Part shown: positions 48,520-64,000 of the stretch, one piece after another | How the letters are laid out: the number at the start of each line of letters is the position of its first letter | How positions within the stretch are numbered: position 1 is the first letter of the stretch | Assembly: GCF_028728065.1 (NCBI RefSeq) | Contig: NZ_CP117812.1 | Span: 2,232,001-2,296,000, forward strand | Length of the DNA stretch: 64,000 nt | Source of the DNA: Lentisphaera profundi | Lineage (GTDB): Bacteria; Verrucomicrobiota; Lentisphaeria; Lentisphaerales; Lentisphaeraceae | Direction of reading: 5' to 3' | Notes under the pieces: model-generated | The model's input: only the letters and a program-made list of their open reading frames with translations | The model's database searches: none | What the model was told of the DNA's origin: nothing | Made by a program: the position numbers and the translations under genes

Positions 48520-48660
48520 ATTTTTTCCTATCTTTAATTTAAAAGTTATGACTTATTCACAGCCAAACTGAATTCCTTTCAAGTAAAATTAATTAAGTTT
48601 GAAATTTCCTGGGTACGCTGAGCACCAGCTCGGCCTTAGCTCAAAAACTAATCTTTAAAC
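48520..48660. other. Spacer with inverted copy of a REP-like hairpin
   Basis: GGGTACGCTGAGCACCAGCT at about 48610 is the inverted form of the CCAAGCTGGTGCTTGGCGTACCC hairpin unit seen near 8140. No gene is present. Confidence 0.5.
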
Positions 48661-48698
48661 TCAGGCCGAAGGCCGTCAACTCAGGCCGAAGGCCGTCA
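48661..48698 (-). repeat. Linker-hairpin array 1 (at the stop of the FecR-LamG gene)
   Basis: Two cores GGCC-TTC-GGCC with linker TGAGTTGAC on the minus strand. The FecR-LamG stop codon TGA forms the first bases of the array (TGACGGCC). Confidence 0.75.
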
Positions 48699-50225
48699 AT
48701 ACAAAGAATTCCTCTCCATCAGTCGCCGTACTTGTCGAGGCGTCACAGCTGCATTGATGATATATAGCTCATCGAGTTTAGCCCTCAAGAAAGATTTTGG
48801 TCCATCCATTTTGCGACCAAAGGCTACCGGCTTAGAAGCAATTGAATCAATATTTGTTCGTACCTTTTCTCCTTGACTTCCACTCACTGCTTCGAGACGT
48901 CCGTCGATATAATGTCGAATGTGACTGGCTACATCCGCATTATCTCCGCCAATAAACAAGCTCACTACATGATGCCAGCGTCCATCACGTAAATCCGTCT
49001 CACCAATGACATAGCCTTCTTTAAATTCAGTTCGTATTGCCCCCATAACACCATCCTTTGAGCGAGCATTCCAAGCAATCTGCCATTTCTGACCCTTTTC
49101 TCTACTATTTCCCCAAGAGACAAATGAATAATTTTCACCTTTTTTAGCATCCTTTGGGATCTTAATCCAGAACGATACTGTGCGTGGTCGTGAGCCCGAA
49201 ACTCCCTTAAAATTCGTAACTGCCCAATCATTGTCACCATCAAAATCCAGGGCATAACCAAACGCCCCCTCACTAAATTGTGGCCCTTCACTCTTTCCTT
49301 TAGTCATAAGCTCAGCCTTAAAGCGATCGTGAAACTCTCCTCCCGATGCTGTCGGAGTCCAATTAAACTCAGCCTCATTAAAAGGCCAATGTACATAGCT
49401 CAAATCTCTTTTTTCCAATAGATTCGGTAAAGAAGCCATTGGGGCTAAGGCCTTATGCTCAGATTGAATCAGGCCTGCACTTGAAATACTAATACGTTCA
49501 TTATCGATGAGCTTCCTGACATTTTCTTCTGCCATGGGATACACCTCTACTTCACCCTGAATAACTTCCACATCACTTAATCCCCGATCATCAATGCCCA
49601 CCATGAATTCAGTCCCCAAGTCCACAACTTTCCCTCCAGGAATATTCAATACAAAACCAACGGCAACCTGAGGTACATAAACACGAACTTTACCCTTACT
49701 TAAACGTACCCGATTAGAACTCTCCAATTCAAGTGCCGAATTGGCTTCAATATTTAATTCGACTCCAGAATCCAAGGTCAAAGCTAGTTTTTTATCAAAT
49801 ACATACGCGCCTTTCTTCAGCCAATCACCCGATGAATAAATCCCTTCTTCTGTAGAATTCACCCTCGCCAAAAACGGCTCTAAGACTGGCTCTGATGAAT
49901 CAGCATTCACAATAGTCTCAGCTTTTTGAGGACTCGAAACTTGCCAAAAAATTAAAGCTCCTAGAAAAATGGCCGCCATGGAGGCCACTCTATAAATAAA
50001 CGCTCTCGACGCGCTTTTATTGATGATTTTCTCGACTTCTTTTAAGTGGGGTTCAATTGCCTTTAACTGCTCGGAGGCATTCAAAATTTGACCCGTTTCG
50101 TAAAGGTACTCAACAAATTTTTTACTGCGCTGATCATCGCTTGCTAATAACTTTTTAAGCTCTTGTCGCTGATTTTCACTTAAGTCATCCCGTAAATAAG
50201 CTTCTGCTAACTTTTCAATATCCAT
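48696..50225 (-). CDS. FecR-type anti-sigma protein with LamG domain
   Basis: The 509-residue protein has a short cytoplasmic anti-sigma-like helical part (residues 1-75), a membrane helix (~78-97), a FecR domain (~150-235, with GKVVDLGTEFMVGI) and a C-terminal concanavalin A-like LamG domain (~290-505, FDGDNDWAVTNF, RTVSFWIKIP). It starts one base before the end of the ECF sigma gene. Such sigma/FecR-LamG pairs are common in Planctomycetes and Lentisphaerae and are thought to sense glycans and release the sigma factor; the adjacent sulfatases are likely targets. Confidence 0.87.
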   Translation of the reverse strand: MDIEKLAEAYLRDDLSENQRQELKKLLASDDQRSKKFVEYLYETGQILNASEQLKAIEPHLKEVEKIINKSASRAFIYRVASMAAIFLGALIFWQVSSPQKAETIVNADSSEPVLEPFLARVNSTEEGIYSSGDWLKKGAYVFDKKLALTLDSGVELNIEANSALELESSNRVRLSKGKVRVYVPQVAVGFVLNIPGGKVVDLGTEFMVGIDDRGLSDVEVIQGEVEVYPMAEENVRKLIDNERISISSAGLIQSEHKALAPMASLPNLLEKRDLSYVHWPFNEAEFNWTPTASGGEFHDRFKAELMTKGKSEGPQFSEGAFGYALDFDGDNDWAVTNFKGVSGSRPRTVSFWIKIPKDAKKGENYSFVSWGNSREKGQKWQIAWNARSKDGVMGAIRTEFKEGYVIGETDLRDGRWHHVVSLFIGGDNADVASHIRHYIDGRLEAVSGSQGEKVRTNIDSIASKPVAFGRKMDGPKSFLRAKLDELYIINAAVTPRQVRRLMERNSLY

Positions 50226-50764
50226 TAATCGACCTCCGGTAAATTCTCATAGCTACGCGTGCATTTACGCAATTGTTGACGGATACGACTCAACATAATA
50301 TAAATGGAATTCACACTGCGTTTATATTTACTTGCTAGATCTTCGGAACTCTCATGCCCCTGATAACTTGCACTCAATAATTCTAAGGAGCTTTCACTGA
50401 GTTTCGCCATACAATATTTTAAGGCTCGCCCCTGACTTTCTCTCCGTTGAATAAATTTTTCATCCACAAATTGACTCACCCTTTGCTCGATCAAATTAAG
50501 CAGGTCCTCATCTTGAAAAAAGCTCTCTTTCTTCCTGGATCGAATGATATTGAGACACTTGAATCTCACGATCCCTTTCACCCAAGGCAAAACGGCCTTA
50601 TCCTTTTCAAAACTCTCAGCTTTATGATTCACCGTAATCATCGCTTCCTGAACTGCATCTTGCGCCAAATCCCAGTCGCGCAGGATGCTATAAGCAAACG
50701 CCGTCAAAGCATTATGATGGCGAAAGACTTCTCTTAGTAAATCATCTCTAAAGGTTTGCTTCAT
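50225..50764 (-). CDS. ECF sigma factor (Rhodopirellula/Verrucomicrobium-type)
   Basis: The 179-residue regulator has region 2 (YSILRDWDLAQDAVQEAMI, VLPWVKGIVRFKCLNIIRSRK) and region 4 (SEDLASKYKRSVNSIYIMLSRIRQQL). It is coupled to the FecR-LamG gene by a one-base overlap. Its start codon lies only 7 nt from a 210-bp heptanucleotide tandem repeat, so the repeat occupies the region where its promoter and leader should be. In-frame extension into the repeat is blocked by a TGA. Confidence 0.9.
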   Translation of the reverse strand: MKQTFRDDLLREVFRHHNALTAFAYSILRDWDLAQDAVQEAMITVNHKAESFEKDKAVLPWVKGIVRFKCLNIIRSRKKESFFQDEDLLNLIEQRVSQFVDEKFIQRRESQGRALKYCMAKLSESSLELLSASYQGHESSEDLASKYKRSVNSIYIMLSRIRQQLRKCTRSYENLPEVD

Positions 50765-50771
50765 TTTTTTC

Positions 50772-50981
50772 AGTTCTCAGTTCTCAGTTCTCAGGTTTCA
50801 GGTTTCAGGTTTCAGGTTTCAGGTTTCAGGTTTCAGGTTTCAGGTTTCAGGTTTCAGGTTTCAGGTTTCAGGTTTCAGGTTTCAGGTTTCAGGTTTCAGG
50901 TTTCAGGTTTCAGGTTTCAGGTTTCAGGTTTCATGTTTCAGGTTTCAGGTTTCAGGTTTCAGGTTTCAGGTTTCAGGTTTC
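50772..50981. repeat. Heptanucleotide tandem repeat in the ECF sigma 5' region
   Basis: Three copies of AGTTCTC (50772-50792) are followed by 27 copies of AGGTTTC (50793-50981), with a single G to T change near 50933. On the minus strand it reads (CCTGAAA)n up to 7 nt from the ATG at 50764. An open frame through it (repeating FRFQVSG) is an artefact of the 21-nt coding period. Confidence 0.97.
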
Positions 50982-51119
50982 AGGTCTTAGGTTTTGTCAG
51001 GATTCATAATTTAAAATTTAAAATTCATAATTTACAATTGGAGCGTAGCGACTCTTTTACTATTCACCACTAAAACACAAAGCTTTCACTCATTCATAAA
51101 AAATTATCAAAAAAAAACA
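50982..51119. other. AT-rich spacer between two repeat arrays
   Basis: It holds a run of AATT-type motifs (TTTAAAATTTAAAATTCAT) and GGAGCGTAGCGACTC, a degenerate linker-hairpin core. No gene is seen. Confidence 0.5.
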
Positions 51120-51293
51120 CTCTCTCAGCCGAAGGCGGTCTCTCAGCCGAAGGCGGTCTCTCAGCCGAAGGCGGTCTCTCAGCCGAAGGCGGTCTCTCAG
51201 CCGAAGGCGTTCTCTCAGCCGAAGGCGGTCTCTCAGCCGAAGGCGTTCTCTCAGGCCGAAGGCCGTTCTCTCAGGCCGAAGGCCGTCAACTCA
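51120..51293 (-). repeat. Linker-hairpin array 2
   Basis: Nine units on the minus strand. Most are 18 nt with linker TGAGAGACC or TGAGAGAAC and core GCC-TTC-GGC; the outermost two have core GGCC-TTC-GGCC. The 5' end (minus) reads TTGAGTTGACGG and is not at any gene end. It lies between divergent sigma genes, about 110 bp upstream of the 51402 start. Confidence 0.8.
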
Positions 51294-51986: not shown

Positions 51987-54169
51987 ACCCCCAAGTTGAA
52001 AATACCGACGAAGACTTACTGCACTCCCTTTTTGCAGAGAGTTGTGAAGACGAAGTTCAGGAAGCACTCGAAGACAATCCCTTCTTTCTCAATTTACAGG
52101 AAAACCAAAAGCGCTATAGCTCACATGAATTGATTGCCTCAGGTGGCATGAAAAATATCTACAAAGTTTTTGATAAAAAAACTGGCCGCCATATTGCCTT
52201 AGCTCGGCTAAAGGACGAAATCCCCGTAGAAGCCTACGAAGCTTTTTTACTCGAAGCCAGGCTCACCTCCCTACTCGAGCATCCCAATATCATTACCGTT
52301 CACGACATTGGCATTAATCACGATGGCAAACCCTACTTTACCATGGAACTCAAAATCGGGGATTCCCTAAAAACTATTATTAGTTCCATTCAGAATCAGC
52401 AAGGCAATTATAAAGAAAAATTCACCCTCCATGAATTGCTCACGATCTTTAGTAAAATTTGTGACGCGGTTTCCTACGCTCATTCACGCTCAGTCATTCA
52501 TTTGGATTTAAAGCCCGGCAATATTCAGATTGGCAGTTTTGGCGAAGTACTCGTCTGCGATTGGGGCCTAGGAAAAGTCATTGGTCATAGCACTTTCGAT
52601 AATTACGAAGACCTTGCCCTCAATCCAGATTTTCTTAATGACATCACCCTCACTGGTCAAATCAAAGGCACCCTCGGCTTTATGGCCCCTGAGCAAGCTG
52701 AAAAAAATGGTGCCAAAACTCCCTTGTGCGACATCTATGCACTGGGTGCTATTCTCTATAGCCTACTCTCGCATCATCCACCTATTGAAGGTTCCAAGGA
52801 TGAAATGCTCAAGCTCACAAAACTTGCGGAAATAGAACCACTCCGTCACAATAGCTTTGGTGACAATATCCCTCAGAGTCTCGCCGCGGTCGCCACTAAA
52901 GCGCTTTCCCTCGATCCCAAGCAGCGTTATCAAAGTGCTTTTGAAATACGTCAAGAAATCGACCTTTTCCTCAAGGGCTTTTCCACCAAAGCCGAACAAG
53001 CTAGCCTCGGCAAAGAATTCCACTTATTCATTAAACGTCATGCCATTTCTTGCTCACTCGCCTTAGCCTTTCTGATCACTGCTCTAATCGGTACCAGTAT
53101 TTTTATTAGAAATCTCAATACGAGTGTCAAAAATGAATTACATGCCCGCGAGATAGCCGAACGTGAAAGTCAGAAAAGTCGTGAATCACAAATGATTGCA
53201 GAACGAGAGAGCCAGCGCAGCCTAGAGGCTTTAGCAATGGCAGAAAGAGCACGCAATCGCAGTAAAGAAGCCATGCTGCTTTTCGAAACCCAGCAGCAAA
53301 AAGCAGAAAAAGCCCTCAGTCTTTATGAGAAAGAAAAAGACTCCCGCAATGACTATGTTCGCGACCTCAGCAAAAAATTCATGGTCCATATCTATAAACT
53401 CACTGATGTCGATGTCTTCACTTCTCCCGTTCAATCCTTAGAACTCGCACTCAAGACTATTTCTCAAATGGAGCACGATCAAAAAGATGCCATTCCAGTA
53501 ATTTTCCTCCAACAAAAGGGCTACATCCAATTCATTATGCAAAACTTTGCGGACGCCGCACAATGCGAATCATCTTTTCCTCAAGTGAAAGCAATGGCCG
53601 CGCTCTGCCTCGATCTTCCTCGTGAAAATAATTTACTTAGGCCCCAAGCCTTTTCCGAATTCTTTCAGCTTTGCTCAAGGGTCCGCTATGGCCACTTCGC
53701 ACCACACATGGCCAGTAAAATGCTCGCTTACGACGGCAGTAAACGCAAAAACATTAAGCACCATAGTCAATTTGTCCATGAGCTCATTAAATTTAGAAAT
53801 CACAATTGGAAAAATGGCCTTTTTGAATTCGATCCCAAAAGCAAACACCTCAAAATATCGGGAAAGAAACTCATCACTATTGGTGCCGTTTATAGCGACC
53901 ACCGCACCGGCTACAAAAACGTTTATTTCTCCTACTTCAGCTATTTAGGACTCCAATCTCTCGATCTCAGCCATAGCGACTTCTTCAAACTCGATGAAAT
54001 CCAAAACCTCAAAATAACCAAGCTCGATATTTCCCATACCCTAGTAACCAACCTACGTCCCCTCGCTGAACTCGCCCGCCTCCAAGAACTCGTCATCAAC
54101 TACGAACAATTCCCCAACAAAACTCTCCAAAACATCCCCTCACATATAAAGATCACCTTTGTTAAATAA
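51983..54169 (+). CDS. Transmembrane Hanks-type kinase with C-terminal LRR (second copy)
   Basis: The 728-residue protein is organised like the 22705 kinase: kinase domain (~45-335), membrane helix (~354-375), a Glu/Arg-rich coiled coil with repeated ERESQxS units (~385-445), a helical part and a short leucine-rich end (LQSLDLSHSDFF, LDISHTLVTNLRPLAELARL). It lacks the CBM-like domain. It shares the atypical residues GGMK, Ala at the beta-3 Lys position (IALARL), HLDLKPGN and DWG. The TAA stop is the first codon of linker-hairpin array 3. Cognate sigma factor directly upstream. Confidence 0.87.
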   Translation: MNPQVENTDEDLLHSLFAESCEDEVQEALEDNPFFLNLQENQKRYSSHELIASGGMKNIYKVFDKKTGRHIALARLKDEIPVEAYEAFLLEARLTSLLEHPNIITVHDIGINHDGKPYFTMELKIGDSLKTIISSIQNQQGNYKEKFTLHELLTIFSKICDAVSYAHSRSVIHLDLKPGNIQIGSFGEVLVCDWGLGKVIGHSTFDNYEDLALNPDFLNDITLTGQIKGTLGFMAPEQAEKNGAKTPLCDIYALGAILYSLLSHHPPIEGSKDEMLKLTKLAEIEPLRHNSFGDNIPQSLAAVATKALSLDPKQRYQSAFEIRQEIDLFLKGFSTKAEQASLGKEFHLFIKRHAISCSLALAFLITALIGTSIFIRNLNTSVKNELHAREIAERESQKSRESQMIAERESQRSLEALAMAERARNRSKEAMLLFETQQQKAEKALSLYEKEKDSRNDYVRDLSKKFMVHIYKLTDVDVFTSPVQSLELALKTISQMEHDQKDAIPVIFLQQKGYIQFIMQNFADAAQCESSFPQVKAMAALCLDLPRENNLLRPQAFSEFFQLCSRVRYGHFAPHMASKMLAYDGSKRKNIKHHSQFVHELIKFRNHNWKNGLFEFDPKSKHLKISGKKLITIGAVYSDHRTGYKNVYFSYFSYLGLQSLDLSHSDFFKLDEIQNLKITKLDISHTLVTNLRPLAELARLQELVINYEQFPNKTLQNIPSHIKITFVK

Positions 54170-54316
54170 GTTCACGAAGCAGAGCTTCTGAGTTGACGGC
54201 CTTTGGCCTGAGTTAACGGAACAAGTTCCTAAGTTCACGGCCTTTGTCCTGAGTTGACGGAACAAGTTCCTGAGTTGACGAAGCAGAGCTTCTGAGTTCA
54301 CGCGCTTTGCGCTGAG
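54167..54316 (+). repeat. Linker-hairpin array 3 (begins at the kinase stop codon)
   Basis: Seven units follow the TAA, which is itself the start of linker TAAGTTCAC. Cores in order: GAAGC-AGA-GCTTC, GGCC-TTT-GGCC, GGAAC-AA-GTTCC, GGCC-TTT-GTCC, GGAAC-AA-GTTCC, GAAGC-AGA-GCTTC, GCGC-TTT-GCGC. Linkers TGAGTTGAC, TGAGTTAAC, TAAGTTCAC, TGAGTTCAC. Only one core has a mismatch. Confidence 0.88.
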
Positions 54317-54341
54317 TAAGTAGTAAGTAGTAAGTAGTAAG
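54317..54341. repeat. TAAGTAG heptanucleotide repeat
   Basis: Three and a half copies of TAAGTAG directly after array 3: another repeat with a 7-nt unit. Confidence 0.85.
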
Positions 54342-59695: not shown

Positions 59696-60195
59696 TGAAA
59701 AAAATTATCTATACATTAGTGATATTACTAAGTTCCCAGCTATTGGCTCAAAAAAACATGAAAATTGCATATTCCGATAACCAACTTGAGCAACTGAAGG
59801 CTCTAGAGTTTTTTGAATATAACTATGTGAAAAAAGCAAAAAAAGAATTAACTGAAGTAAAAAAAACTATCACTAAATACGAACGTGGTCTCGCTAAACT
59901 AGCTAAAAAATCTAAAGTCTATAAAACTCGATATGCCGAATTAAAAGAACTCAAAAACGAAGAGAAATCTCACAAAATATTAATACTATACCCAAGTATC
60001 TATACTAAGGCCATTGATTTTTACGTAGCAAATAACTTTGTCGAGCAACAAAAGCACATGAAATTAAAAATGGAACTAGAGAAACAATACAAAGAATTAT
60101 CTAAAAAAGACTTCCCCAATATTGCAGGTGAATATAGCCTATACAAAAAGGGAAAAAAACGCAAACCCTCTAAACGCACGGCCTCTTCAAAGTAA
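59695..60195 (+). CDS. Secreted coiled-coil protein of unknown function
   Basis: About 166 residues from the ATG at 59695, which overlaps the preceding stop by one base. A signal peptide (MKKIIYTLVILLSSQLLAQ) is followed by a mostly Lys/Glu-rich coiled coil and a basic end (KKGKKRKPSKRTASSK). No family is recognised. Its place in the prepilin operon suggests an exported accessory protein. Confidence 0.7.
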   Translation: MKKIIYTLVILLSSQLLAQKNMKIAYSDNQLEQLKALEFFEYNYVKKAKKELTEVKKTITKYERGLAKLAKKSKVYKTRYAELKELKNEEKSHKILILYPSIYTKAIDFYVANNFVEQQKHMKLKMELEKQYKELSKKDFPNIAGEYSLYKKGKKRKPSKRTASSK

Positions 60196-61121
60196 TGCTC
60201 AGAGTTTTAGTTTTTTTTCTATGCTTGAATGTTTGGTCCCAAGGCAGCTTAACTGAAAGCTGTCTTTTTGATTTTGCGCAGGGCATTAAGGCTCAAACAC
60301 TCATTGGCCAAGAAGATCAGTACACAAGCCTTCAACAGCCCCTAGAACGTGCCCAAAGGCTCCATAGTCGCAAAGCGGTCGCTATCAAAAATTACTTGCG
60401 CAAGGCGCAAAACTCCATCGTAGATTTCAGTACTAAGGAAAAAGAACTTCTCAATCAAGCTTCCGCAGAATTGGCCGAGACTTTCAAAGCTTACAAGCTC
60501 GACTTCCCCAAGAAAATCTATTATCTGAAGACTAACGGCAAAGAAGAAGGCGCGCCCTACACACGTAAAAACTTCATCGTTTTCCCTGACTCGAGCCTCA
60601 AAAAAAACTTAGCTGAACTCAAAGAATTACTCGCTCATGAGCTCTTTCATATCCTCAGTCGTTATCATCCCGACTTAAGTACCGAGCTCTACAAAATTAT
60701 TGGCTTTCATTATTGTGGCACCATCAAAGAATCACCCGAACTCAAAGCCATTCGCATTACCAACCCCGACGCCCCTCTGTACCAACACTACATCATGCTC
60801 AAAGACAAGAAGGGTAAAACTTTCCCCGCCATTCCCTTTTTACATCTCAAAATCAAATCACTCAAAGAAGTCGATGATCATTCCGTCTTTCGTCACATGC
60901 AGCTCAGCTTTGTCAAAATTGATTTAAAAAAGCTAAGTACCCTCGGCCCCATTATCCCCGTAGAAGCTATTGCACCCTCACTCTTTAAACAAATTGGTGA
61001 TAATACCCATTATATCATTCACCCCGAAGAAACTATCTCAGATAACTTCGCACAAATCATGTGCGGCATCCCAGCAAAAACCCCCAGGATTCACCATGAA
61101 ATCAAGTCGACGCTACGCTGA
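60195..61121 (+). CDS. Secreted HExxH metalloprotease-like protein
   Basis: The 308-residue protein has a signal peptide (ends ~residue 16) and a zinc-protease motif H148-E-L-F-H152 (LLAHELFHILSRYHP), typical of M-type gluzincins; E or H further on as third ligand cannot be assigned by eye (candidates in HPEETISDNFAQIM). It is the last gene of the prepilin operon, coupled by one base, and could process the exported large protein. Its last codons and stop (CGCTGA) fall in linker-hairpin array 5. Confidence 0.75.
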   Translation: MLRVLVFFLCLNVWSQGSLTESCLFDFAQGIKAQTLIGQEDQYTSLQQPLERAQRLHSRKAVAIKNYLRKAQNSIVDFSTKEKELLNQASAELAETFKAYKLDFPKKIYYLKTNGKEEGAPYTRKNFIVFPDSSLKKNLAELKELLAHELFHILSRYHPDLSTELYKIIGFHYCGTIKESPELKAIRITNPDAPLYQHYIMLKDKKGKTFPAIPFLHLKIKSLKEVDDHSVFRHMQLSFVKIDLKKLSTLGPIIPVEAIAPSLFKQIGDNTHYIIHPEETISDNFAQIMCGIPAKTPRIHHEIKSTLR

Positions 61122-61258
61122 GTTTACGGCCTAAGGGCCTGAGTTTACGCTACGCTGAGTTTACGGCCTAAGGGCCTGAGTTTACGCTACGCTGAGTTGA
61201 CGAAGCAGAGCTTCTGAGTTTACGGCCTAAGGGCCGGAGTTGACGCCAACTAGTTGGC
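61112..61258 (+). repeat. Linker-hairpin array 5 (begins inside the protease gene)
   Basis: The first core GCTACGC ends the coding sequence, and linker TGAGTTTAC begins with the stop codon TGA. Later cores: GGCC-TAAG-GGCC, GC-TAC-GC, GGCC-TAAG-GGCC, GC-TAC-GC, GAAGC-AGA-GCTTC, GGCC-TAAG-GGCC, GCCAAC-TA-GTTGGC. Confidence 0.88.
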
Positions 61259-61307
61259 TAAGAAAAACAAAGTCTTAAACCACCGATCCTACGGATTTAA
61301 ATATATA

Positions 61308-61547
61308 TTCTCAGCGCGAAGCGCGTATTCTCAGCGCGAAGCGCGTATTCTCAGCGCGAAGTGCGTAAACTCAGGCCAAAAGCCGTTCTTTCAGCGTAGC
61401 GGTCTTTCAGCGTAGCGGTCTTTCAGCGTAGCGGTCTTTAGCGTAGCGGTCTTTCAGCGTAGCGGTCTTTAGCGTAGCGGTCTTTAGCGTAGCGGTCTTT
61501 CAGCGTAGCGGTCTTTCAGCGTAGCGGTCTTTCAGCGTAGCGACTCA
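61308..61547 (-). repeat. Linker-hairpin array 6 (ends at the usp stop codon)
   Basis: On the minus strand the array starts with the usp stop TGA (TGAGTCGCTACGC), runs through about ten 16-nt units (linker TGAAAGACC, core GC-TAC-GC, some shortened), a GGC-TTTT-GGCC unit and three 20-nt units (TGAGAATAC, GCGC-TTC-GCGC; one has GCAC). It faces array 5 in the same convergent intergenic region; the 50 bp between them holds no gene. Confidence 0.86.
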
Positions 61548-62426
61548 TTTCACAACCAAAATATCAATTTTCGCATCGTGAATTATATGCCTCACCGTAC
61601 TGCCCGTAATCATTTTCTCGATATTGTGATTAGAAGAGGAACTAACGACAATCAATTCCGCCTTAGTTTCTTCTGCAAATAGATGTATTTGTGCGGAGGG
61701 ATCACCAAAGCGTACATGATGTGGGTAACGCTCTGGCTCGATATTCAGTAAATTATAGAGGCGCCTAAATTGCTGCTCAGCCTCTTTCCGGAATACATCA
61801 TCCGTAATTTGTGTGACACCATCATTGGAACTGAGGTAGCCATCAAAATCAGAATAGTTGATCACCTCGGGCAAAACGTGAATGAATTCTAAGTCCGCTC
61901 CCGTCTGTTGCGCAAATAGCAAAGCTTGAGCCGCCGCTTTTTGACAAGCAGCAGTAAAATCTACCGGGCATAAAATACGTTTTGGTATCCCCGTAAAAGC
62001 CTTATCGGGATGAATCCATACGGGGCCCTCGGCATATTTCACCAGGCGTTCGGCGTGGCTTTTGCCCAACATGTGCATAAAACCCGTACTATGACGGCCT
62101 ATAACAATCAGTGAATTCCCTATTTTTTTTGCAATGCTCGCAAGCTCTTTGGCGGTATTGCCCACACTAATGAGTGGTGCCTCAATCTTGTGATGGCCAT
62201 TATCGGGATAAAGATGCTGAATTTCATCACTTAACTTTATCATTATTTTATCTAAAACTTCATCTGTAGACTTGGGATGCAGCAACTTCACACTGAGGGG
62301 CTCTATGATGTGTACTGGATAAATTAATGCACCAAAAAGCTGACTTAATTTTTGCGCTTCTCGCACAGCTAAACTGAATTGTTTTTTGGAAGTGACGCCC
62401 ACTATGATTGTTTCGATATTTTTCAT
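61545..62426 (-). CDS. Tandem universal stress protein
   Basis: The 293-residue protein consists of two UspA domains (about 1-145 and 147-293). The first ends IVIGRHSTGFMHMLGKSHAERLV and has a nearly normal ATP-binding G-2X-G-9X-G spacing in its Gly residues. The second has VVSSSSNHNIEKMITGSTVRHII, where the first Gly positions are replaced, so it may not bind ATP. It is likely cytoplasmic and stress-linked. Single gene, read toward array 6. Confidence 0.9.
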   Translation of the reverse strand: MKNIETIIVGVTSKKQFSLAVREAQKLSQLFGALIYPVHIIEPLSVKLLHPKSTDEVLDKIMIKLSDEIQHLYPDNGHHKIEAPLISVGNTAKELASIAKKIGNSLIVIGRHSTGFMHMLGKSHAERLVKYAEGPVWIHPDKAFTGIPKRILCPVDFTAACQKAAAQALLFAQQTGADLEFIHVLPEVINYSDFDGYLSSNDGVTQITDDVFRKEAEQQFRRLYNLLNIEPERYPHHVRFGDPSAQIHLFAEETKAELIVVSSSSNHNIEKMITGSTVRHIIHDAKIDILVVK

Positions 62427-62822: not shown

Positions 62823-63028
62823 TCAGGCCATAGGCGGTCTCTCAGCCGTAGGCGTTCTTTCAGCGCAGCGTTCTTTCAGCCGTAGGCGTTCTTTCAGCGC
62901 AGCGTTCTTTCAGCCGTAGGCGTTCTTTCAGCGCAGCGTTCTTTCAGCGCAGCGTTCTTTCAGCGCAGCGTTCTTTCAGCCGTAGGCGTTCTTTCAGCCG
63001 TAGGCGGTCTTTCAGCGTAGCGTTCTTT
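62823..63028 (-). repeat. Linker-hairpin array 7 (upstream of cysQ)
   Basis: About a dozen units on the minus strand: linkers TGAAAGAAC and TGAAAGACC, cores GC-TGC-GC (10 or fewer), GCC-TAC-GGC and one GC-TAC-GC. Unlike most arrays it lies between divergent genes; its 5' end (63028) is not at a gene end, and its 3' side runs 35 bp from the cysQ start in the leader position. Confidence 0.82.
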
Positions 63029-63062
63029 CTTCTTTAAACCTCACAATAACGAAACTCTATTC

Positions 63063-63806
63063 ATGATAAACGACATAATAAAACTTGCCCGTGAAGCCGG
63101 CGCTAAGATCATGGAGATCTATGCCACTGACTTCGAAGTTTACACCAAAGACGACAAATCTCCCCTTACTGAAGCCGACCAAGCTGCTAACGCAATCATT
63201 TGTGCTGGCTTGCAAGAACTCACTCCAAATATCCCCATCCTCTCTGAAGAAAACAAAACCATTGATTACGCGGATAGAAAAGATTGGACTCAAATGTGGG
63301 TTGTAGATCCCATTGATGGCACCAAAGAGTTTATCAAAAAAAATGGTGAATTCACTGTGAACATCGCCTTAGTAGAGCGCGGCATACCCATTGCCGGCGT
63401 TGTTTATGCTCCTGCCATTGATGATCTTTATTGGGCAGATGAAACGGGTGCCTATAAAAATGGCGATAAATTACCTCTCACGACTAATAACACACCAGAA
63501 AAAGCTCTGACCATTGTGGCCAGCCGCTCACACATGTCTCAAGAAACTCAAGATTATGTCGACTCACTCAAAGCCGGTACCGAATCAATTGAACTCACTT
63601 CTGTGGGTAGCTCACTCAAACTCTGCTACGTTGCCGAAGGCAAAGCGGACCAATACCCTCGCCTCGCCCCCACCATGGAATGGGACACGGCTGCCGCTCA
63701 CGCCGTCGCCCTTCAGGCAGGCAAGGAAGTTCTCGATTTCAAAACACGCAAGCCTCTGCAGTACAACAAAGAAAATCTTCTCAACCCCTGGTTCCTGGTA
63801 AAGTAA
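63063..63806 (+). CDS. cysQ: 3'(2'),5'-bisphosphate nucleotidase
   Basis: The 247-residue enzyme converts PAP/PAPS to AMP/APS in sulfate assimilation, or acts as an inositol monophosphatase-family member. Motifs: DKSPLTEADQAAN (metal/substrate loop), LSEEN (E62-E63), VVDPIDGTKEF (D82-D85) and MEWDTAAAHAV with the last Asp. No signal peptide. Its TAA stop starts linker-hairpin array 8. Confidence 0.94.
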   Translation: MINDIIKLAREAGAKIMEIYATDFEVYTKDDKSPLTEADQAANAIICAGLQELTPNIPILSEENKTIDYADRKDWTQMWVVDPIDGTKEFIKKNGEFTVNIALVERGIPIAGVVYAPAIDDLYWADETGAYKNGDKLPLTTNNTPEKALTIVASRSHMSQETQDYVDSLKAGTESIELTSVGSSLKLCYVAEGKADQYPRLAPTMEWDTAAAHAVALQAGKEVLDFKTRKPLQYNKENLLNPWFLVK

Positions 63807-63878
63807 GGAAGAACGTTCACGAGTGAACTTAAAGTAGAAAGATCGCTGCGCTTAAAGAACGGCGTGACGCCTGAAAGA
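63804..63878 (+). repeat. Linker-hairpin array 8 (begins at the cysQ stop codon)
   Basis: After TAAGGAAGAAC come the cores GTTCAC-GA-GTGAAC, GC-TGC-GC and GGCG-TGA-CGCC with linkers TTAAAGAAC and TGAAAG. It ends 6 nt before the next gene's start. Confidence 0.75.
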
Positions 63879-63883
63879 GAAAA

Positions 63884-64000
63884 ATGGAAGAGAAGATGAT
63901 TCATTATTACGAGAAACTCGAGGTATGGAAACAAACCGTGGATTTGAGTCTTGACATCTACAAGGTCTTACATAATTGCAAAGACTATGGTCTCAGAGAT
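63884..64000 (+). CDS. Four-helix-bundle protein (S23/IVS family), partial
   Basis: 39 residues are visible before the window ends (MEEKMIHYYEKLEVWKQTVD, LSLDIYKVLHNCKDYGLRD). YEKLEVWKQ and the following helix match the family of proteins first seen in intervening sequences of spirochaete 23S rRNA (TIGR02436/PF05635). Most are free-standing, function unknown. It starts just after array 8; AGAGA is a weak ribosome site. Confidence 0.8.
   Translation, partial: MEEKMIHYYEKLEVWKQTVDLSLDIYKVLHNCKDYGLRD

Follow-up and report, generated by a model that had tools for sequence, protein, structure and literature searches.

Intervening sequences (IVS) of 23S rRNA genes, as found in Coxiella and Leptospira, carry an S23p ORF within the loop closed by a terminal inverted-repeat stem; they are sporadic and thought to be horizontally acquired (PMC4990558). 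Short tandem repeats close to gene ends have also been described, namely GGGAATC heptamers near stop codons in Xanthomonas and Nostoc (Rehm 2015, PMC4692102) and TAACTGA heptamers that lie close to stop codons or across them in Beggiatoaceae and others (MacGregor 2015, PMC4679880), and the term 'four helix (bundle)' is absent from the main texts of both papers. The Avd protein of diversity-generating retroelements is a structural relative of S23P (PMC10053308), and S23P genes among cas genes have been reported as CRISPR-locus-associated (PMC3936711).

The window studied here is the whole stretch of 64,000 nucleotides at C2:2232001-2296000 of the Lentisphaera profundi genome (G000; 5.46 Mb, two contigs, C1 and C2), and it was compared with the genomes of two sister species of the same genus (G001 and G002). 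Its repeat arrays and the genes next to them are as follows.

48658 to 48699, minus strand: two-unit array over the fecR stop codon (TGA inside TTGACGGCC)
48696 to 50225, minus strand: FecR/Laminin_G_3 protein gene (fecR)
51121 to 51287, minus strand: further array of the family, in the gap between two sigma-factor genes, away from any stop codon
51983 to 54169, plus strand: Ser/Thr protein kinase gene (PF00069), 5' of array 3, its stop residue the same in the two sister species
54167 to 54316, plus strand: array 3, seven units (linker TRAGTTNAC plus palindrome), its first TAA being the kinase stop codon
54634 to 54737, minus strand: array opposing array 3 (convergent partner), ahead of the next gene
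60195 to 61121, plus strand: HExxH-motif protein gene
61110 to 61258, plus strand: array giving the HExxH gene its stop codon, extending downstream
61306 to 61547, minus strand: array from the usp stop codon, opposing the HExxH array
61545 to 62426, minus strand: universal stress protein gene usp (PF00582)
62827 to 63029, minus strand: further array of the family, on the upstream side of cysQ, away from any stop codon
63063 to 63806, plus strand: cysQ gene (TIGR01331)
63804 to 63879, plus strand: left arm array from the cysQ stop codon, running into the S23P gene
63896 to 64000, plus strand: S23P / 23S_rRNA_IVP / four-helix-bundle gene (PF05635, TIGR02436), cut by the end of the window, its stop lying near position 64243

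A first-pass annotation of the window had claimed that five of these arrays begin exactly at stop codons. In the case of the kinase, usp and cysQ genes this proved exact. The kinase gene ends GTT AAA TAA, and TAAGTTCAC-GAAGCAGAGCTTC begins with this TAA, from where the seven units run onward to 54316; usp ends AAA TGA GTC GCTACGC TGAAAGACC and cysQ ends AAG TAA GGAAGAAC followed by a hairpin, both arrays starting exactly at the stop. These three stops fall on the same residue in each of the three species, and therefore the arrays abut natural stops, with no gene truncation. At the other two sites the claim needs rewording. At fecR the linker is truncated (TATTGACGGCC) and its second TGA is the stop of the gene, so that the array overlaps the stop and has no full first unit. 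Regarding the HExxH protein, its C-terminus varies among the three species, and the repeats supply or abut the stop there; 9 nt or more of the array (ACGCTACGC), perhaps 16 nt, belong to the ORF, so that the array reaches inside the gene and supplies its stop. In G001, TTTTGAA heptamers are found instead 3' of the kinase and HExxH genes, and a heptamer supplies the HExxH stop. All five stop-associated arrays are oriented as the upstream gene, as had been claimed. The kinase itself comes from a very large paralogous family, with 109 matches in G001 and 123 in G002.

Across the three genomes, the array unit measures 16-22 nt and consists of a stop-bearing linker, TRA-NNNNNN, followed by a short palindrome of variable sequence. 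More precisely, the linker has 9 nt (T-R-A-R-N-N-N-N-C) and the palindrome after it begins with G. The commonest linkers in a set of 298 chained units were TGAGTTGAC, TGAGTTTAC, TGAAAGAAC and TGAGAATAC, and these 298 units with a common linker held 82 distinct cores, the majority of them perfect palindromes (e.g. GGCC-TTT-GGCC, GGAAC-AA-GTTCC, GAAGC-AGA-GCTTC and GCGC-TTC-GCGC). Though the core sequences vary between units, the stems retain their pairing. Like the GGGAATC and TAACTGA heptamers, the arrays are intergenic, often between aligned ORFs, and some lie near or over stops; unlike in the descriptions of those heptamers, they form inverted arms around S23P genes. With REP/REPIN sequences and their RAYT (PMC3116915) they share hairpin units that are short and often stand in inverted pairs, and they differ from them in having a constant linker, a variable stem and no adjacent RAYT.

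For statements on the whole genome, pattern searches were combined with a 400 kb sample of G000 (20 evenly spaced 20-kb stretches). Tandem-linker matches fell mainly into C2:2.28-2.34 Mb, with minor groups at C1:1.33, 1.58 and 2.39 Mb and at C2:1.45 Mb; the array-dense part of the window is 48-64 kb, and almost no arrays occurred in the 20 sampled stretches. The arrays are thus clustered rather than spread genome-wide, and the earlier genome-wide premise has to be corrected. Two heptamer arrays were seen in this neighborhood as well. One, with 18 copies of ACTGACA (L015:1228-1352), lies a few kb beyond the window, within the array-rich region. The other, with 32 copies of TTTCAGG (window 50768-50994), stops 4 nt short of where a sigma-70-like gene (50225-50764, minus strand) starts; no clear ribosome-binding site is seen between this array and the start, and the copy number could affect the expression of that gene.

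The placement of the arrays was then described statistically, using regions picked by linker pattern, independent of gene position, a linker-based detector and gene calls from a simple hexamer model. Merging left 43 arrays in the three genomes. In these pattern-selected regions, 18 arrays have a gene of the same strand next to their TRA end, and 10 of them begin within 3 nt of its stop codon; arrays placed uniformly within the gap would give 0.83 (P ~1e-11). The ten cases include orthologous sites counted in two species, and therefore about eight are independent. Where the TRA side faces a divergent gene start, 0 of 25 arrays came within 3 nt. Opposite-orientation arrays sharing one gap were convergent, i.e. 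facing each other, in 6 of 6 cases. The arrays are placed at stops precisely and in an oriented manner, and the earlier statement that this is far tighter than random intergenic insertion is supported by these counts.

The last array of the window, at cysQ, leads into a gene that the first-pass annotation had missed, whose ATG is at window position 63896. The protein encoded there scores 126 bits against the Pfam model PF05635 (cut-off 33.8) and 122 against the NCBIfam model TIGR02436 (cut-off 24), and is thus an S23P protein, a family with related solved structures (2gsc, i.e. XCC0516, and 2rld). A search of phages gave no relative of it at E 1e-5. An array of opposite orientation lies 3' of the gene, beyond the window end. 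Four S23P genes were found in G000, all at C2:2.295-2.338 Mb and thus inside the array-rich region; what these copies have in common at the DNA level is mainly the stretch between -21 and +7 around the ORF. Most S23P genes of this bacterial family have tandem repeats at one end, with a unit that differs each time, and these repeats often begin at the S23P stop codon. With a dN/dS of 0.05, S23P is under purifying selection.

At the sites described above, S23P genes are present in some of the three species and absent in others. Directly 3' of usp, an S23P gene is present in G001, within heptamers, and in G002, within arrays; the same gap in G000 holds two facing arrays only. Downstream of cysQ, an S23P gene within arrays is present in G000 and G002, and G001 has a remnant-like unit only. 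The usp-site proteins of G001 and G002 are 26% identical and the cysQ-site proteins of G000 and G002 46%, whereas copies at different sites within one genome are 86-89% identical. The simplest reading of these sequences would be that the usp and cysQ sites were filled independently in different species; within-genome gene conversion of older S23P copies is a possible alternative. In none of the three species was an S23P gene found immediately next to the kinase array, and in G000 none was found at the fecR array. At three of four sites in the genus, left and right arms pair above shuffled controls (HExxH/usp, z -6.6; cysQ, z -6.9 and -3.9), and the G002 cysQ element folds with z -3.7; the arms at the kinase site do not pair above shuffles (z -1.2).

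To see the family more widely, S23P loci from other bacteria were compared with 620 uncurated control ORFs. Among the 80 best relatives, which come from many phyla as best hits to one alignment and are counted without correction for kinship, 44 have a tandem array at the S23P stop, against 37 of the 620 controls (6%; Fisher 1e-25). Arrays occur at the S23P start in 36/80 and at start or stop in 56/80, and none was detected at 24/80. The period is a multiple of 7, mostly as heptamers, in 35 of the 44 stop arrays, and the S23P stop codon is covered by the array in 20 of the 44. The flanks of S23P are inverted repeats of each other, with a median local score of 28 against 15 in controls, and 54/80 loci exceed the 95th percentile of the controls (p = 2e-23); direct similarity between the flanks was not raised in the 80 loci. 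S23P is associated with inverted tandem arms. A same-strand gene lies at most 400 nt before S23P in 67/80 and a same-strand gene follows in 63/80. Starts of the left arm at the upstream stop show a mild excess here (19 against 13.6 expected uniformly), which is mild because the gaps are short in these loci. As a general rule, the idea that repeats carry stops by design was rejected: stop-bearing heptamers are not sense-enriched at S23P stops (23 vs 22 of 42).

Filled and empty sites were also compared. In a four-gene plasmid module of Nostoc, the boundary between genes h2 and h3 is empty in pC052_A and pC052_B (TTTTAG-gtt-ATG and TTCTAG-att-ATG), and filled in pC052_D and pNsp_a by S23P placed exactly from stop to start: TTCTAA-atcaggagtcaggagtcagaagtcaggagtcagaataa-ATG ... 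CTGACTTCTGACTCCTGA-cttctggattctgatt-ATG, the element ends being TTCTAA-atcaggagtcagg...S23P...cctgacttctggattctgatt-ATG. The pC052_D element (L206) folds as a long terminal stem enclosing the ORF (z -4.5). Another S23P sits one gene further in pNsp_c, where the empty form has stop and start overlapping by one base. Further filled/empty pairs are traM/hyp, cas6/cas4 and nrdB/nrdA; at the traM site of pNsp_c, facing arrays without S23P resemble the window kinase gap, and in Anabaena sp. 90 the cas6 stop is located inside the array. In these pairs whole elements thus lie at stops. Seen by module, different Nostoc plasmids (L196, L206, L207) have S23P at different gene boundaries of one four-gene module. 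Plasmids of Anabaena sp. 90 and Pseudanabaena galeata have it between cas6 and cas4, and it is missing there in Dolichospermum UHCC 0315A, whose flanks are 98.8% identical (loci L202, L198 and L204). The reported CRISPR link of the S23P family may partly reflect such insertion.

Altogether, we consider it probable that the arrays belong to small intercistronic elements with an S23P gene at their core, either as terminal arms or as remnants that lack S23P. Counting against this reading are the kinase and fecR arrays at which no S23P gene was found, the kinase arms that do not pair above shuffles, the 24/80 loci with no detected array and the mild excess of left-arm starts at stops in the 80 loci. 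The closest likeness is to the 23S rRNA IVS, with which they share an S23P ORF between terminal inverted repeats able to form a stem (54/80 loci; pC052_D fold z -4.5). Unlike the IVS, the elements lie between protein genes at stop codons, their arms are tandem heptamers or hairpin units, and their S23P is under strong purifying selection. The loci read here are outside the 23S rRNA gene and between protein genes, and therefore they are not classed as rRNA IVS. A further difference concerns diversity-generating retroelements, as neither a reverse transcriptase nor a template/variable repeat was noticed at S23P loci when these were read, short of a systematic search.

Mechanistically, the two arms could pair in the transcript and close the S23P ORF within a stem, as in the 23S rRNA IVS, and we infer that this stem forms and is processed in cells. 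The left edge at a stop codon would mark a boundary where elements insert or are tolerated, and an array lapping into a gene would terminate that gene by its own in-frame stop. The kinase array would then be an element arm without its gene, a remnant. S23P presumably drives mobility or repeat formation; no movement was seen, and no DNA-cutting or DNA-joining enzyme is known in the element. The earlier suggestion of insertion at a stop-codon-like target stands as far as some stop-codon placement goes (filled and empty sites, unrelated S23P at the same stop); the stop codon may act as a boundary either through target choice or through survival of harmless insertions only.

Among other explanations, neutral slippage fares best, although we regard it as unlikely. 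Intergenic tandem repeats would expand up to coding sequence, and stop-bearing units would lap gene ends harmlessly. The array-supplied stops at the HExxH gene and at cas6 in Anabaena fit this, and MacGregor 2015 (PMC4679880) argued likewise for the TAACTGA repeats. However, slippage leaves the S23P association, the inverted arms, the facing pairs and the lack of hugging at start codons unexplained, and related plasmids differ by the presence or absence of whole S23P elements at stops.

Still less credit can be given to the view, also put forward in the first-pass annotation, that the arrays are expanded 3'-end hairpins kept for ending transcription or protecting mRNA 3' ends. Palindromic stems in sense orientation right after stops, whose pairing is maintained while the sequence varies, are what it would predict. 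However, 25 of the 43 arrays are away from 3' ends, and on the sense strand the arrays at 54167, 61110 and 63804 lack the stem plus T-run of an intrinsic terminator. Array 3 moreover folds weakly as RNA (z -1.3) and matched no family in an Rfam search, the stem mismatches show no G-U bias (6 G-U against 12 A-C), and the G001 heptamer arrays occupy the same stops without such stems. The arrays could still contribute to mRNA stability. A further idea, that genes of G000 end in a post-stop hairpin by default, was rejected, as such hairpins are rare at ordinary genes there.

Mobilization as REP/BIME-like elements by a Y1 (RAYT) transposase encoded elsewhere is highly improbable, for although the units are a short linker plus hairpin and Y1_Tnp genes are present in all three genomes, none lies in the array-rich region C2:2.28-2.34 Mb, those at C1:772 kb and G002 C38 adjoin a different repeat, CTGAAGGAACG, and REP stems are conserved, whereas in these units the stem varies (82 cores in 298 units) and conservation is confined to the linker. 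The CTGAAGGAACG repeats next to Y1_Tnp transposase genes (G000 C1:772221, in L062, G000:C1:766001-776000; G002 C38:5601) suggest a separate REP/RAYT-like family in this genus.

Returning to intercistronic elements built around S23P, a wider and more tentative proposal, for which the case stops somewhat short of even, is that S23P genes throughout the bacteria form the core of a mobile class not recognised so far, the intercistronic IVS, which would insert at operon stop codons and make the long-known inverted heptamer arrays; the reported CRISPR-cas links would then partly be insertion at cas boundaries. In the literature searched, whose scope left out bioRxiv and most subscription papers, no prior statement of a connection between S23P, inverted heptamers and stop codons was found. 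The proposal links three loose ends, i.e. the origin of heptamers near stops, the role of S23P genes in operons and the spread of IVS, and under it S23P genes, inverted arms and placement at stop codons are expected to co-occur. If true, this common gene, whose annotation is just 'four helix bundle protein', would mark a small mobile element that leaves operons unbroken.
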